From an uncultured Opitutaceae bacterium (GTDB lineage: Bacteria; Verrucomicrobiota; Verrucomicrobiia; Opitutales; Opitutaceae): DNA of 15,122 bases. The stretch covers positions 1 to 15,122 of the forward strand of contig CAKZMS010000298.1 in assembly GCA_937128785.1 (NCBI GenBank). Reading direction: 5' to 3'. The notes under the pieces were generated by a model. It ran no database searches. It was not told where the DNA came from and saw only the letters and a program-made list of their open reading frames with translations. How positions within the stretch are numbered: position 1 is the stretch's first letter; each line of letters starts with the position of its first letter. The position numbers were made by a program, and so were the translations under genes. This document shows, in pieces, positions 9,579 through 12,321 of the stretch.

Positions 9579-9608
9579 GGGGCTGATGGCGTGGTTGCGG
9601 TTGGGGGA

Positions 9609-9857
9609 TCAATCCGGCCACAGGCGTTTGTTGGCAAACGCGTGTCCTGAACCGGACTTCAGATATGTTTCAAAAGCCAACGCCTGCTTCTTGGATGAGA
9701 AGCCGATGTAGGTTTTAAGCACCCAAGGACGAAACGGTGCCGTGCTCGGATTCTTACCGTTGTTATGATCCGCAATACGAGACGGCAGGTCGGTAGAATA
9801 CCCGACATACCTGCGGTCCTGAGTCCAACTACTCTCGATCAAATACACATAGTGCAT
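9609..9857 (-). CDS. Small GIY-YIG nuclease-family protein
   Basis: This 82-residue protein is a stand-alone GIY-YIG domain (PF01541), the nuclease fold of UvrC's N-terminal half and of some homing endonucleases. The two motif strands are YVYLIES (3-9) and YVGYSTD (17-23). The catalytic arginine is probably the one in PSRIADHNNG (25-34), and the glutamate is in LAFETYLKSGSGHAFANKRLW (60-80). All key positions look intact. Its target is unknown; family members of this size are often multicopy. It converges on ppk1 with a 30-bp gap. Immediately upstream of its start lies a cluster of palindromic repeats, and a broken relative lies 0.7 kb away. A hairpin in its 3' end (9624-9641) falls in conserved coding sequence. 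No Shine-Dalgarno; TGCC precedes the ATG. Confidence 0.88.
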   Translation of the reverse strand: MHYVYLIESSWTQDRRYVGYSTDLPSRIADHNNGKNPSTAPFRPWVLKTYIGFSSKKQALAFETYLKSGSGHAFANKRLWPD

Positions 9858-9861
9858 GGCA

Positions 9862-9911
9862 CTGCTTCGCTAAAAGCTACGCAGCGCATCCTTCGCCCAT
9901 TTTGGCGGCCG
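9862..9911 (+). repeat. Palindromic repeat pair upstream of the GIY-YIG gene
   Basis: Two short units lie end to end. The first (9862-9884) is an imperfect palindrome containing GCTTCGCTAAAAGCTACGCAG. The second (9885-9911) begins CGCATCCTTCGCC and continues to GGCGG. Its CATCCTTCGCC (9887-9897) recurs exactly, inverted, as GGCGAAGGATG at 9968-9978 in the next repeat. Both units share the pattern CTTCGCYnAARGCTWCG or part of it with the repeats at 9952-9981 and in rpsB. Confidence 0.6.
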
Positions 9912-9951
9912 GCAATAAATTACAGTCGACCGGTCCAGATAGGTGGGGCCG

Positions 9952-9981
9952 CGCCATCCGAAGCCTTGGCGAAGGATGGCG
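9952..9981 (-). repeat. Palindromic repeat abutting the 3' end of tRNA-Ser
   Basis: The arms CGCCATCC (9952-9959) and GGATGGCG (9974-9981) pair perfectly over 8 bp. The minus-strand interior is TTCGCCAAGGCTTC. The unit overlaps the last bases of tRNA-Ser: the CCA and discriminator (9977-9980) are inside the arm. It is inverted relative to the unit at 9885-9911, so the two form a facing pair about 70 bp apart, as in the BIME composites of REP elements. No T-run follows, so it is not a standard terminator. Confidence 0.65.
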
Positions 9982-10066
9982 GAGAGAGAGGGATTCGAAC
10001 CCCCGTTACCGTTGCCGGTAAATCTGATTTCGAGTCAGACGCATTCGACCACTCTGCCATCTCTCC
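9977..10066 (-). tRNA. tRNA-Ser(CGA), with encoded CCA
   Basis: The minus strand folds as a class II tRNA of 90 nt including CCA. The acceptor GGAGAGA pairs with TCTCTCC, the discriminator is G, and GCCA is encoded. The anticodon stem TCTGA/TCAGA surrounds CTCGAAA, so the anticodon is CGA, reading UCG. The long variable arm is a neat hairpin (TTACCG-GCAA-CGGTAA). The T arm has GGGGG/CCCTC with loop TTCGAAT. The acceptor matches bacterial tRNA-Ser(CGA). It lies 56 bp downstream of the DUF983 gene on the same strand. A weak promoter-like pair (TTCCGT, 16 bp, TACCTT; 10109-10082, minus strand) precedes it. The 3' end overlaps the palindromic repeat. Confidence 0.95.
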
Positions 10067-10122: not shown

Positions 10123-10530
10123 CTAGGTGTTGTGATCCTCATTATCCGCGATCTTACGCTGATTCGCCGGGAGGTGGTGCGGCAGGAAAAAATAGTAGTT
10201 CATCAGCCACCAACTGCGGGAGGGACGGTAGAGTAAAATCGGCACGATGATCGCCCCGAGTCCGGCCGCCACGCTCGCCACGATTCCGGAAATTATCCCG
10301 AAAACATAGAACAATAAGACCGGCACCAAATACAACACGATCGTCACCCCGTAGTTCAGCGAAAGCGAGCCCAGGTAACCGCCTTCATCACGTTCGATGA
10401 CCATGCCGCACTGGGGGCAGGACGGATTCACGCGAAACCGCTTTTCCGGCTGGAACAGGGTCTTCCCGCCACAGTTCGGACAACGGCAGGTCAGCCCCCG
10501 CCCTACGATTTGGCCTCGGGTTACATTCAT
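10123..10530 (-). CDS. DUF983 membrane protein with a zinc-ribbon motif
   Basis: This 135-residue protein matches DUF983 (PF06170). The N-terminus has a four-cysteine zinc-ribbon pattern, CPNC (17-20) and CPQC (38-41), in RGLTCRCPNCGGKTLF and PSCPQCGMVIERDEGG. Two membrane helices follow at about 59-80 and 84-101 (GVTIVLYLVPVLLFYVFG; VAAGLGAIIVPILLY). The tail is short and polar. The family is widespread, and its function is not established. Its ATG overlaps the stop of the broken GIY-YIG gene (ATGA on the minus strand), so the two were once translationally coupled. With that gene broken, DUF983 translation may now depend on its own weak start site; no Shine-Dalgarno is visible. Confidence 0.88.
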   Translation of the reverse strand: MNVTRGQIVGRGLTCRCPNCGGKTLFQPEKRFRVNPSCPQCGMVIERDEGGYLGSLSLNYGVTIVLYLVPVLLFYVFGIISGIVASVAAGLGAIIVPILLYRPSRSWWLMNYYFFLPHHLPANQRKIADNEDHNT

Positions 10531-10787
10531 TCGGATTGATCTCTGAACTGATCAAGAAGCTCCTGCAATCCCGCTCCGCCCTTCTGTTGCTTAAGCTGGT
10601 TTTCCAATTTTCGAGCTTCACCAAGGAATCAAAATCATGACTCATCCATTTTGAACTCCATGGACCGCGAGATCGTGTCCATTTGCTCACCCCATCGTTG
10701 TGATCCCGAAGCCTACGCGCGACGTCAAGAGAGACCAATATATGTCCGGTTCTTTGAGTTCACAATCAGGTAAACTCTGTACGGCAT
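10527..10787 (-). pseudogene. GIY-YIG nuclease gene broken by two compensating frameshifts
   Basis: From the ATG at 10787 the minus strand reads MPYRVYLIVNSKNRTYIGLS and then hits TGA. One base on, frame 2 continues DVARRLRDHNDGVSKW and PWSSKWMSHDFDSL, which is the expected GIY-YIG middle with its Arg and HN. A second shift back to the first frame gives GEARKLENQLKQQKGGAG and LQELLDQFRDQSE, stopping at 10527. An extra T in CTCTCTTGACG and a missing G in TCCTTGGTGAA explain both shifts. The full span is 261 bp, divisible by three, as for an intact 86-residue gene. The stop overlaps the DUF983 start by ATGA. Either the gene is dead or the two indels are sequence errors. The start follows directly after the tRNA terminator. 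Confidence 0.8.
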
Positions 10788-10798
10788 CTCAAAATACC

Positions 10799-10827
10799 AA
10801 AAAAGCCCCTCCGAAAACGGAAGGGCT
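10799..10827 (-). terminator. Intrinsic terminator after tRNA-Met
   Basis: On the minus strand AGCCCTTCCG and CGGAGGGGCT form a 10-bp stem (one G-U pair) around TTTT, followed by TTTTTT (10804-10799, overlapping the stem end). It begins 4 nt after the tRNA's CCA, as expected for a tRNA terminator. It also isolates the broken GIY-YIG gene, whose ATG is 12 nt further on, from the tRNA transcript. Confidence 0.8.
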
Positions 10828-10831
10828 AAAT

Positions 10832-10908
<77 letters not shown>

Positions 10909-10921
10909 ATAAAGTGATGAG

Positions 10922-10954
10922 GTTTTCGACTCGTCTGGGTTTGGTATCGAAAAC
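10922..10954. repeat. Inverted repeat upstream of tRNA-Met
   Basis: GTTTTCGA (10922-10929) and TCGAAAAC (10947-10954) are exact reverse complements, 8 bp each, with a 17-bp spacer. It starts 14 bp upstream of the 5' end of tRNA-Met on the minus strand, so it lies in the expected promoter area. It may be an operator or a hairpin in the tRNA precursor. Confidence 0.35.
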
Positions 10955-11022
10955 GTTGAACTGAAAGGAACGTCCCTCCGACTCGGCTTTGAGCCTGACT
11001 GCCCGAGGGGAGGGAGAGGAAT

Positions 11023-11071
11023 GGAATCAGAAAGTGAGGTGTCAACAGGGTTTTTAAAAAATTCTGATTCC
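11023..11071. repeat. 10-bp inverted repeat around a TTGACA and AT tract
   Basis: GGAATCAGAA (11023-11032) and TTCTGATTCC (11062-11071) are exact reverse complements, with 29 bp between them. The spacer contains the minus-strand TTGACA (11045-11040) and TTTTTAAAAAA. The arms therefore bracket a candidate -35 element, which would suit an operator with two half-sites, or a long stem-loop in either leader. Confidence 0.4.
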
Positions 11072-11220
11072 TGCCTTGCATCACCCTCGGCCAATCTCTG
11101 TGTTCGACCGCTCTCTCTCCTGATAGAGACGTTCATTCGAACTCCCATTAACCACTAAATCCGATCGCAAGGCCGCCCATCGGCGGACCTGTGTAATCAA
11201 AATCTACATAGATCACTCCC

Positions 11221-12321
11221 ATGAGTAAACTCACCACTACCGTTCGCGACTTGCTCGACGCCGGTGTCCATTTTGGCCACCAGACCAAGCGCTGGAACCC
11301 CCGTTCCAAGCCTTTCATCTTCGATCACCGTCAAGGCGTCACCATAATTGACCTCGGCAAGACCTATGCCGCGCTCGAAAAAGCCTGTGACGCGCTCACC
11401 GAAATCGTCGCCAATGGCGGCAACGTGCTCTTCGTCGGCACCAAGCGCCAGGCTCAGGAAATCGTCCGCGAGGCCGCCGCCTCCGTCAACATGCCCTACT
11501 GCGTGGATCGCTGGCTCGGCGGCACGCTGACCAACTTCGCCACCGTCAAGGCCTCCATCGCCAAGTATAAGAAGTATCAGGCCATGGACACTTCCGGCGA
11601 GCTGCAGAAGCTCGGTGGCAAGGAACAAGCCGCCATCCGTCGCGAGATGGTGCGCATGCAGAAGAATTTCTCCGGTATCGCCGAAATGGGCGACCTGCCG
11701 CAGGCCATGTTCATCATCGACGTGTCCCACGAGGACATCGCCGTGGGTGAAGGCGTGCGCTGCAAGATTCCGACCGTCGGACTCGTCGACACCAACTCGG
11801 ACCCGAGCAACGTCACCTACCCGATCCCGGGCAACGACGACGCCGTGAAGTCCATCCGTGTGATCGTCGAGACCGTGGTTGAGGCCGTGCAAAACGGACT
11901 CGGCCAACGCGATGCCCGCCGCATCGCCAAGGGTCAGGCTGACTTGAAGGCCGCCACCGCCGCGGTGGCTGCCGCCGCTGAAGCGGCTGAGGATCAACCC
12001 ACCCCCGCCGCGGACGTGACGGAAACCGTCTCCGACGAGGTCGTCATCCCGGCCGCCGCCAAGCGCAAGAAGATCGCCGCTCCGAAGGACGGCGCTGCCG
12101 CTGAAGAAGCCTCCACCTCCGCCGAGGCTACGGCGGACAAGCCCTCTGCGGAAGAGGCCCCGGCTCCTGCTCCCGCTCCGGTGGAAGAGCCTGCTCCGGC
12201 CCCCGCCGCTGAGGAAGCTCCCGCCGCTGATGAGACTCCGGAAGAGCCCAAGCCGGCTCCCGCTCCTCCTCCCGCCGCTCCCGCTCCGGCTCCGGCTCCC
12301 GCCCCCGAAAAGTCCGAGTAA
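11221..12321 (+). CDS. rpsB: Ribosomal protein S2 (uS2) with a long Ala/Pro/Glu tail
   Basis: S2 is a small-subunit protein that binds near S1 and is needed for translation initiation. Residues 1 to about 232 form a full S2 domain: LLDAGVHFGHQTKRWNPRSKPFI (11-33), NVLFVGTKRQAQEIVREAA (68-86), YCVDRWLGGTLTNF (93-106), then FIIDVSHEDIAVGEG and IPTVGLVDTNSDP. Usual length is about 230-260; here it is 366, because a low-complexity tail follows (about 235-366). The tail is rich in Ala, Pro and Glu, with a basic patch KRKKIAAPK (281-289) and repeated APAPAP and EEAPA units. Residues 298-308 (STSAEATADKP) are encoded by a palindromic repeat. tsf follows after 39 bp, the usual bacterial rpsB-tsf pair. 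No Shine-Dalgarno; CTCCC precedes the ATG. Confidence 0.97.
   Translation: MSKLTTTVRDLLDAGVHFGHQTKRWNPRSKPFIFDHRQGVTIIDLGKTYAALEKACDALTEIVANGGNVLFVGTKRQAQEIVREAAASVNMPYCVDRWLGGTLTNFATVKASIAKYKKYQAMDTSGELQKLGGKEQAAIRREMVRMQKNFSGIAEMGDLPQAMFIIDVSHEDIAVGEGVRCKIPTVGLVDTNSDPSNVTYPIPGNDDAVKSIRVIVETVVEAVQNGLGQRDARRIAKGQADLKAATAAVAAAAEAAEDQPTPAADVTETVSDEVVIPAAAKRKKIAAPKDGAAAEEASTSAEATADKPSAEEAPAPAPAPVEEPAPAPAAEEAPAADETPEEPKPAPAPPPAAPAPAPAPAPEKSE
12118..12137 (+). repeat. Palindromic repeat inside the rpsB coding tail
   Basis: TCCGCCGAGGCTACGGCGGA has 6-bp perfect arms (TCCGCC/GGCGGA). It shares the core CGCCRAGGCTWCGG with the repeat at 9952-9981 (two differences in 14 bases). It is read in frame and encodes part of STSAEATADKPS, unlike the APAP/EEA pattern around it. 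This suggests insertion of a dispersed repeat into a tolerant low-complexity tail. Confidence 0.55.

Follow-up and report, generated by a model that had tools for sequence, protein, structure and literature searches.

T4 SegB is a GIY-YIG homing endonuclease whose gene lies between tRNA-Arg and tRNA-Ile and which targets the tRNA intergenic region, as described in the available part of PMC2988022. The palindromes of REP/RAYT systems carry a GTAG (or CGTC) tag at one end (PMC3733652 and PMC8266576, sections available), and a REP pair that is laid out with its nuclease is presented in the available sections of PMC8266576. The word GIY does not occur in the available main text of PMC3733652. Among the matches listed in the open-access literature, with subscription papers mostly lying outside, there was no description of GIY-YIG genes located at tRNA ends together with palindromes.

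Here we analyzed a 15,122-nucleotide stretch of DNA (the window) from an uncultured Opitutaceae bacterium (GCA_937128785.1, contig CAKZMS010000298.1), in which a small GIY-YIG gene, palindromes and a tRNA-Ser gene lie side by side. Based on sequence comparisons, we suggest that this unit probably belongs to a family of minimal mobile elements (~0.3-0.5 kb) living at tRNA and tmRNA 3' ends, with two inverted REP-like hairpins right after the CCA and one small GIY-YIG gene in the tRNA direction, and with a mechanism that may be homing-like.

The tRNA-Ser locus and its nuclease

The tRNA-Ser(cga) gene (9977-10066, minus strand; ARAGORN and Rfam) is a host gene, and its encoded CCA (9977-9979) is abutted by the element. 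In the gene direction the order is tRNA-Ser(cga) with its CCA, hairpin H1 (9981 to 9952), a spacer of 54 nt, a perfect inverted repeat of the H1 arm (9897 to 9887), hairpin H2 (9887 to 9859), one base and the ATG of the nuclease gene (9609-9857, minus strand; ORF list and Pfam match, E 6.2e-15), which encodes an intact protein of 82 aa. H1 (9952-9981, minus strand) was identified by its fold and by arm co-variation in 59 loci and reads CGCCATCC-TTC-GCC-AA-GGC-TTC-GGATGGCG; its stem takes in the last five bases of the tRNA-Ser, CGCCA. The inverted copy of its arm, GGCGAAGGATG (9887-9897, minus strand), is an exact 11-bp repeat that has 9968-9978 as its partner and that co-varies with it in 58 loci. 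H2 (9859-9887, minus strand) was read from the sequence, shows arm co-variation in 41 loci and carries the H1 motif in the opposite orientation. The intact gene, the facing palindrome and the exact 11-bp repeat had all been noticed in an earlier, sequence-only reading of this DNA and were found again here. It had also described a palindrome cluster ending on tRNA-Ser, which holds because the tRNA gene spans 9977-10066 and its 3' end is thus overlapped by the far palindrome. The cluster itself was placed by that reading at 9862-9911 and 5 bp from the gene; the palindrome next to the gene is read by us as 9859-9887, one base from the ATG.

In both hairpins the outer stem is separated from a short inner stem by a 3x3 internal loop, in which, on one strand, GAA stands opposite either GAA or GTA. 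As DNA, H1 of the window folds with -8.4 kcal/mol (z -2.23), the stretch containing H2 alone (9862-9902) is no more stable than its shuffled versions (z -0.22), and the 121-nt stretch as a whole gives z values of only -1.48 and -0.55 on its two strands. The CCA is encoded in all 22 ARAGORN-confirmed tRNA genes among the loci of the window's own genome, and in three of these (Ser-cga, Arg-ccg and Glu-ctc) an H1-like hairpin, seen by eye, follows the CCA immediately. Beyond the nuclease gene, the best repeat of the tRNA is CGCCATC (9585-9591, minus strand), which may be a short direct copy of the tRNA 3' end and H1 start (9975-9981) but at 7 nt is weak by itself.

The window protein matches Pfam PF01541 with 55.7 bits (cut-off 22.6), GIY-YIG being its only domain, and the domain, the conserved core residues and the fold of the GIY-YIG superfamily are all present. 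An alignment shows 17 invariant columns across 38 relatives. The structure model of the protein has a pLDDT of 96, and its top fold matches are At-HIGLE (E 9e-4), Slx1 (E 1e-3) and UPF0213 (E 3e-3), each with a probability of 1.00 and with modest E-values. By sequence, the nearest solved structure is UPF0213 1zg2 (E 6.4e-5), and UPF0213 is the only close one. At least 1339 homologues were found at E 1e-10, and a comparison with NCBIfam gave no family for the window protein. A tblastn search of a phage collection gave no match to the window nuclease, and a phage origin was dropped on this ground.

A second GIY-YIG gene lies nearby, as the earlier reading had stated, and it is indeed broken. This frameshifted remnant belongs to another subfamily (~10600-10787, minus strand, boundaries approximate; ORFs 10725-11084 and 10388-10738, profile match of 18.8 bits) and is located 90 nt downstream of tRNA-Met(cat) (10832-10908, minus strand; ARAGORN), so that a GIY-YIG gene lies downstream of each of the two tRNAs in the window. 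It shows a terminator-like hairpin, but lacks H1 and H2.

Relatives at tRNA and tmRNA 3' ends

Relatives were gathered from a scan of a public genome collection (57 loci), from 13 whole genomes behind some of the loci and from 61 genomes of the window's family. Removal of 20 exact duplicates left 85 distinct genes, 82 of them with at least 300 nt upstream. A complete same-strand tRNA or tmRNA gene lies within 500 nt upstream in 62 of these 82 relatives, the upstream gene being tmRNA in L054, L075, L127 and L149. Four of the 82 follow only a tRNA 3' fragment, which ends in CCA directly before H1, and 16 have neither by the rule used; among the latter, L045, L059, L074 and L143 show a short tRNA-end-like stretch by eye and L078, L079 and L081 are themselves partial matches. 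An opposite-strand tRNA within 500 nt was seen for one of the 81 genes with 400 nt upstream. The isotypes at the 60 loci with a tRNA are Ser (26), Leu (8), Gly (4), Val, Pro, Tyr, Gln and Ala (3 each), Met and Asp (2 each) and Arg, Ile and Lys (1 each), which makes 13 isotypes in use, together with tmRNA. The usual order is tRNA-CCA, H1, spacer, inverted H1-arm copy, H2 and gene. The small GIY-YIG gene and the facing palindromes recur as a unit in several phyla, and the element was seen in Verrucomicrobiota, Pseudomonadota, Patescibacteria and bins of other phyla. Because relatives are present in some genomes and missing from others at this kind of site across many bacteria, the unit looks like a minimal selfish element that docks at tRNA genes.

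As a control, PF01541 matches were collected from 41 family genomes (92 rows), 69 of them were examined, and those in an open frame below 230 aa were counted as small. A same-strand tRNA or tmRNA within 400 nt upstream was found for 21 of 37 small genes and for 0 of 32 large, mostly UvrC-length ones. Residence at tRNA genes is therefore a more general trait of the small free-standing GIY-YIG genes of this family. GIY-YIG genes without H1 and H2 are also located at tRNA ends (L292, 11 nt from tRNA-His; L297, 10-13 nt from tRNA-Met; L284, 9 nt from tRNA-Arg), and thus the palindromes are not needed for this position. The tRNA end, which the sequence-only reading had mentioned only in passing, is the main and unifying feature.

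One explanation for such a position is that the nuclease and the hairpins serve the host, in tRNA 3'-end processing, transcription termination or DNA repair at tRNA genes. The strict same-strand position behind the tRNA would agree with this, as would the conserved residues of the fold and the pairing of H1 with the CCA end in the window. However, the gene was detected in only 25 of the 61 family genomes (some of them incomplete), 13 isotypes and tmRNA are used, and absent or decayed alleles exist at orthologous sites, as described below; we consider a host function very improbable.

Another question is whether the match between the facing palindromes is more than a coincidence of one locus. 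The left arm of H1 pairs with its own right arm over a mean of 6.42 nt (59 loci), whereas arms swapped between loci give 4.74 +- 0.13, and 0 of 2000 swaps reach the observed value. The H1 arm matches the repeat before H2 over a mean of 10.17 nt (58 loci) as compared with 7.35 +- 0.25 for swapped partners (0 of 2000 swaps). The H1 co-variation is kept inside an Opitutales-side set (25 loci) and inside a mostly alphaproteobacterial set (26 loci), with 0 of 5000 swaps in each, and the arms of H2 co-vary as well (41 loci, 0 of 5000), though less strongly when only the family is considered (17 loci, 61 of 5000); in all these swaps between loci, shared ancestry inside the sets is not fully removed. 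Judged by co-variation within loci against swapped partners, the match of the facing palindromes in the window appears to be more than chance.

Alleles, repeats and the possible mechanism

Elements that are present, decayed or absent beside an intact conserved gene can be seen by comparing related genomes at one tRNA. In Brevundimonas, where 55 of 61 genomes match at tRNA-Leu(gag), inspection of 30 fetched loci by eye gave one full element, one H1 alone, one decayed element and 27 loci without it. In Mesorhizobium 93 of 119 genomes match at tRNA-Ser(gct), and 30 fetched loci together with 4 earlier ones gave 34, divided into 9 with a type A element, 7 with type B, 3 with decayed type B, 3 with hairpin starts only and 12 with neither. 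A common downstream sequence is found in 30 of the 34, which makes these variants alleles of one site. The right boundary of the element was read by eye in Mesorhizobium, where the flank of the empty allele resumes close to the nuclease stop codon in filled alleles, and has no base-exact placement in Brevundimonas. In two Mesorhizobium tRNA-Ser loci (L195 and L204) the sequence after TCCTGCTTC switches to the same unrelated sequence, as if there were an insertion in H1.

The type A nuclease stands behind a TCCTGCTTCGC start in all nine Mesorhizobium loci where it is found, although some copies are frameshifted and L206 has only 55 residues matched. Type B sequence is found in ten loci, seven of them behind a CCCTACGCCC-type start; the exceptions are L213, in which a 59-residue piece follows a type A start, and the decayed L214 and L216, which stand behind starts of neither type. 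Altogether, the nuclease type agrees with the palindrome type in 16 of 17 classifiable copies.

For the window site, we compared 30 tRNA loci drawn from 100 family genomes. The DUF983 gene upstream is kept in 7 of the 30, and 2 of these 7 (the window and L234) have a GIY-YIG match, so that present and absent alleles beside an intact conserved gene are found here as well as in Brevundimonas and Mesorhizobium. In L236 (genome G281, of the window's genus) the ppk match and the tRNA-Ser-like match share a strand, with ppk upstream of the tRNA, while in the window ppk converges on it, which indicates a rearrangement of the site. Genome G003 carries two elements, behind tRNA-Ser(gct) and behind tRNA-Ser(gga); their common block of 498 nt (93% identical) is made up of the tRNA and the element, and a comparison of the two loci at E 1e-3 found nothing common beyond it.

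The earlier reading also suggested that the GIY-YIG nuclease plays the part of a RAYT and that the palindromes are a multi-copy family. In a REP/RAYT-like mechanism the nuclease would recognize the hairpins that the palindromes form in single-stranded DNA, and would mobilize both them and its own gene by way of single-stranded DNA, as is thought for TnpA-REP. Two inverted and co-varying palindromic units beside the nuclease gene, the agreement of nuclease and palindrome types in Mesorhizobium and the hairpin-only copies at tRNA ends (in Brevundimonas, Mesorhizobium and at the tRNA-Arg and tRNA-Glu of the own genome) would agree with such a mechanism. The own genome, an assembly that is 82% complete and split into 774 contigs, gives a different picture. 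The palindrome core is over-represented in it, with 100 matches at up to 2 mismatches (15 of them exact) against 24 for a reversed control, but when 30 of these places were fetched as loci, 12 were of the GGGGTCA/TGACCCC type, 3 of the GGTCGG/CCGACC type and 15 of neither by a loose arm test. The enrichment of the core near GIY-YIG genes, which had been put forward as the check, was not seen: the window gene is the only GIY-YIG match found by sequence in this assembly, and the window copy is therefore the only exact core near such a gene. We thus rejected the own-genome count as evidence for GIY-YIG mobilization, the other copies being away from GIY-YIG genes and at least 15 of 30 having other arms. 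Together with the GIY-YIG genes that occupy tRNA ends without H1 and H2 (L284, L292 and L297), these own-genome copies make a REP/RAYT-like movement unlikely. What stays of the suggested RAYT role is the recurring unit, the co-varying arms and the matched types, and what is not supported is a spreading of the core through this genome by the nuclease.

Some other core copies deserve mention. By the loose arm test, longer palindromes with GGGGTCA/TGACCCC-type arms surround the core in L082, L087, L089-L091, L096, L099, L101, L103, L106, L110 and L111 and are reminiscent of RAYT-type REPs. The own assembly has 5 matches to the Y1 transposase family PF01797, with GGGGTCA/TGACCCC words near four of them and no core within the loci fetched around the five. 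The related palindrome that had been reported inside rpsB is a core match with one mismatch at 12118-12133 of the window, and it does lie within coding sequence, in an alanine/proline/glutamate-rich C-terminal extension.

Direct repeats of the tRNA 3' end were looked for after the gene. Matches to the own tRNA 3' end within 120 nt after the gene average 6.14, while swapped tRNAs give 5.62 +- 0.14 (59 loci, 0 of 2000 swaps); the same holds within 160 nt (1 of 2000) and 240 nt (0 of 2000), the enrichment within 80 nt is not significant (278 of 2000), and two control regions show none (1730 of 2000 for 57 loci and 1826 of 2000 for 58 loci). Exact repeats of at least 12 nt after the gene occur in 4 of 81 loci, as compared with a swapped mean of 0.34 and a maximum of 3. 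Because such repeats are that few and the 80-nt enrichment is not significant, most copies are without the repeats that a copying model would use. The longest, of 34-35 nt, are those of L284 and L297, the latter with a 34-nt repeat of tRNA-Met, and the Patescibacteria genome of L128 has an 18-nt repeat of tRNA-Ile. In L284, which lies in a one-contig genome, tRNA-Arg is followed by three tandem GIY-YIG genes with a copy of the tRNA 3' half after each; of these four copies, counting the tRNA itself, three are identical over 34 nt and one has a short deletion, and the tandem unit of ~318 bp contains a single gene. In the repeats of L284:963-1960 the tRNA-Arg anticodon arm is replaced by a short hairpin, with the preceding D-arm stretch AGAGCAG kept. 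L284 and L297 share a similar hairpin before the repeat (CCCCGAC/GTCGGGG or close), although their tRNAs differ.

These repeats resemble attachment sites, and one may ask whether the genes are only remnants or cargo of larger, integrase-driven islands at tRNA genes and do not move by themselves. It was described, in the available part of PMC9897764, that tRNA 3' ends are integration sites and that tRNA fragments are left behind, and the four copies behind a tRNA 3' fragment would fit such a history. Yet, between the element boundaries in Mesorhizobium, L284 and G003 no integrase gene was found, only the GIY-YIG gene. The block common to the two G003 loci is tRNA and element alone, the Mesorhizobium flank resumes by the nuclease stop codon (by eye), the L284 tandem unit has a single gene, and the orientation is fixed and the palindromes co-vary, all of which speaks against hitch-hiking and makes it quite improbable.

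The reading that we prefer, of a mobile family at tRNA ends, is suggested by residence at many isotypes, orientation, co-varying palindromes, present, decayed and absent alleles, similar copies at two tRNA-Ser genes in G003 and tRNA 3' repeats in some copies. A possible mechanism is that the nuclease would be expressed by read-through from the tRNA gene and would cut tRNA genes that are without the element, after which repair would copy the element in; homology for this would come from the conserved 3' region of the tRNA and, in copies that have one, from the tRNA repeat on the far side. The palindromes may act as a recognition or self-protection site of the nuclease, or in control of its expression at the RNA level. 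The host would be little harmed, since the tRNA gene stays intact. More tentatively, we propose as a real possibility that these elements form an undescribed, recombinase-free mobile class, in which a small GIY-YIG nuclease would home to many tRNA and tmRNA 3' ends, the tRNA would be left intact or rebuilt, the tRNA 3' end would serve as portable homology and the paired GAA-loop palindromes as a cis site, and several nuclease/palindrome types would compete for the same tRNA.

The protein tree is poorly resolved, as 51 of its 77 inner branches have support below 80. It therefore does not prove that elements jumped between hosts or isotypes, and we dropped it as proof of host jumps. In this tree L039, which comes from a Verrucomicrobiota bin, is placed among alphaproteobacterial copies with a support of 91 and shares their palindrome type, possibly through a binning error.

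If the proposal is true, tRNA genes dock some of the smallest autonomous-looking elements, beyond the large integrase-driven islands, and the large uncharacterized group of GIY-YIG homologues gains a habitat and a testable role. It would also supply a non-HUH case for the open question of co-evolution between palindromic repeats and their nucleases. The Mesorhizobium and Brevundimonas loci form natural series of present, decayed and absent alleles, which makes the idea directly testable.

Comparison with known systems

UPF0213-type and Slx1 GIY-YIG proteins are the nearest solved relatives of the window protein, UPF0213 by sequence and both by fold. The tRNA-end nucleases differ from them in a conserved C-terminal SGSGHAF-type motif, and UPF0213-type and Slx1 proteins are not known to be associated with tRNA genes or palindromes.

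With REP/REPIN and RAYT (TnpA-REP) systems the element in the window shares an inverted pair of imperfect palindromes beside a small nuclease gene, and in Mesorhizobium the palindrome and nuclease types go together in a like manner. The window nuclease, however, is GIY-YIG and not HUH/Y1, GTAG is found in the window hairpins only in the internal loop of H2 and not at the stem base of H1 or H2, and the position at tRNA ends is fixed, in place of scattered intergenic copies. The layout therefore fits a REP pair, yet two defining REP/RAYT features fail, as the nuclease family and the GTAG tag are different. A search with a Sinorhizobium copy against plasmids, which bears on whether Rhizobium RIME repeats are the same thing, gave no match.

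Islands and phages of the tyrosine-integrase type likewise use tRNA genes, with a rebuilt tRNA and, as in some copies here, a direct repeat of the tRNA 3' end (PMC9897764, part available). In contrast, the tRNA-end elements measure ~0.3-0.5 kb and most copies have no long repeat.

The free-standing GIY-YIG homing endonucleases of T4-type phages, above all SegB, likewise consist of a single GIY-YIG gene between host genes, which for SegB are tRNA genes, as far as the available texts describe them. Their inheritance by double-strand-break repair would be a further likeness, one which for the tRNA-end elements we only infer. Unlike SegB, the elements belong to bacterial chromosomes, where they sit exactly at the 3' ends of many tRNAs and of tmRNA, the window protein is only ~80 aa long without a separate DNA-binding domain, and paired palindromes and sometimes tRNA 3' repeats are present, with no match in the phage collection. 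By analogy, and with cleavage assumed, T4 SegB and similar free-standing homing endonucleases would be the closest model for how the tRNA-end element works.
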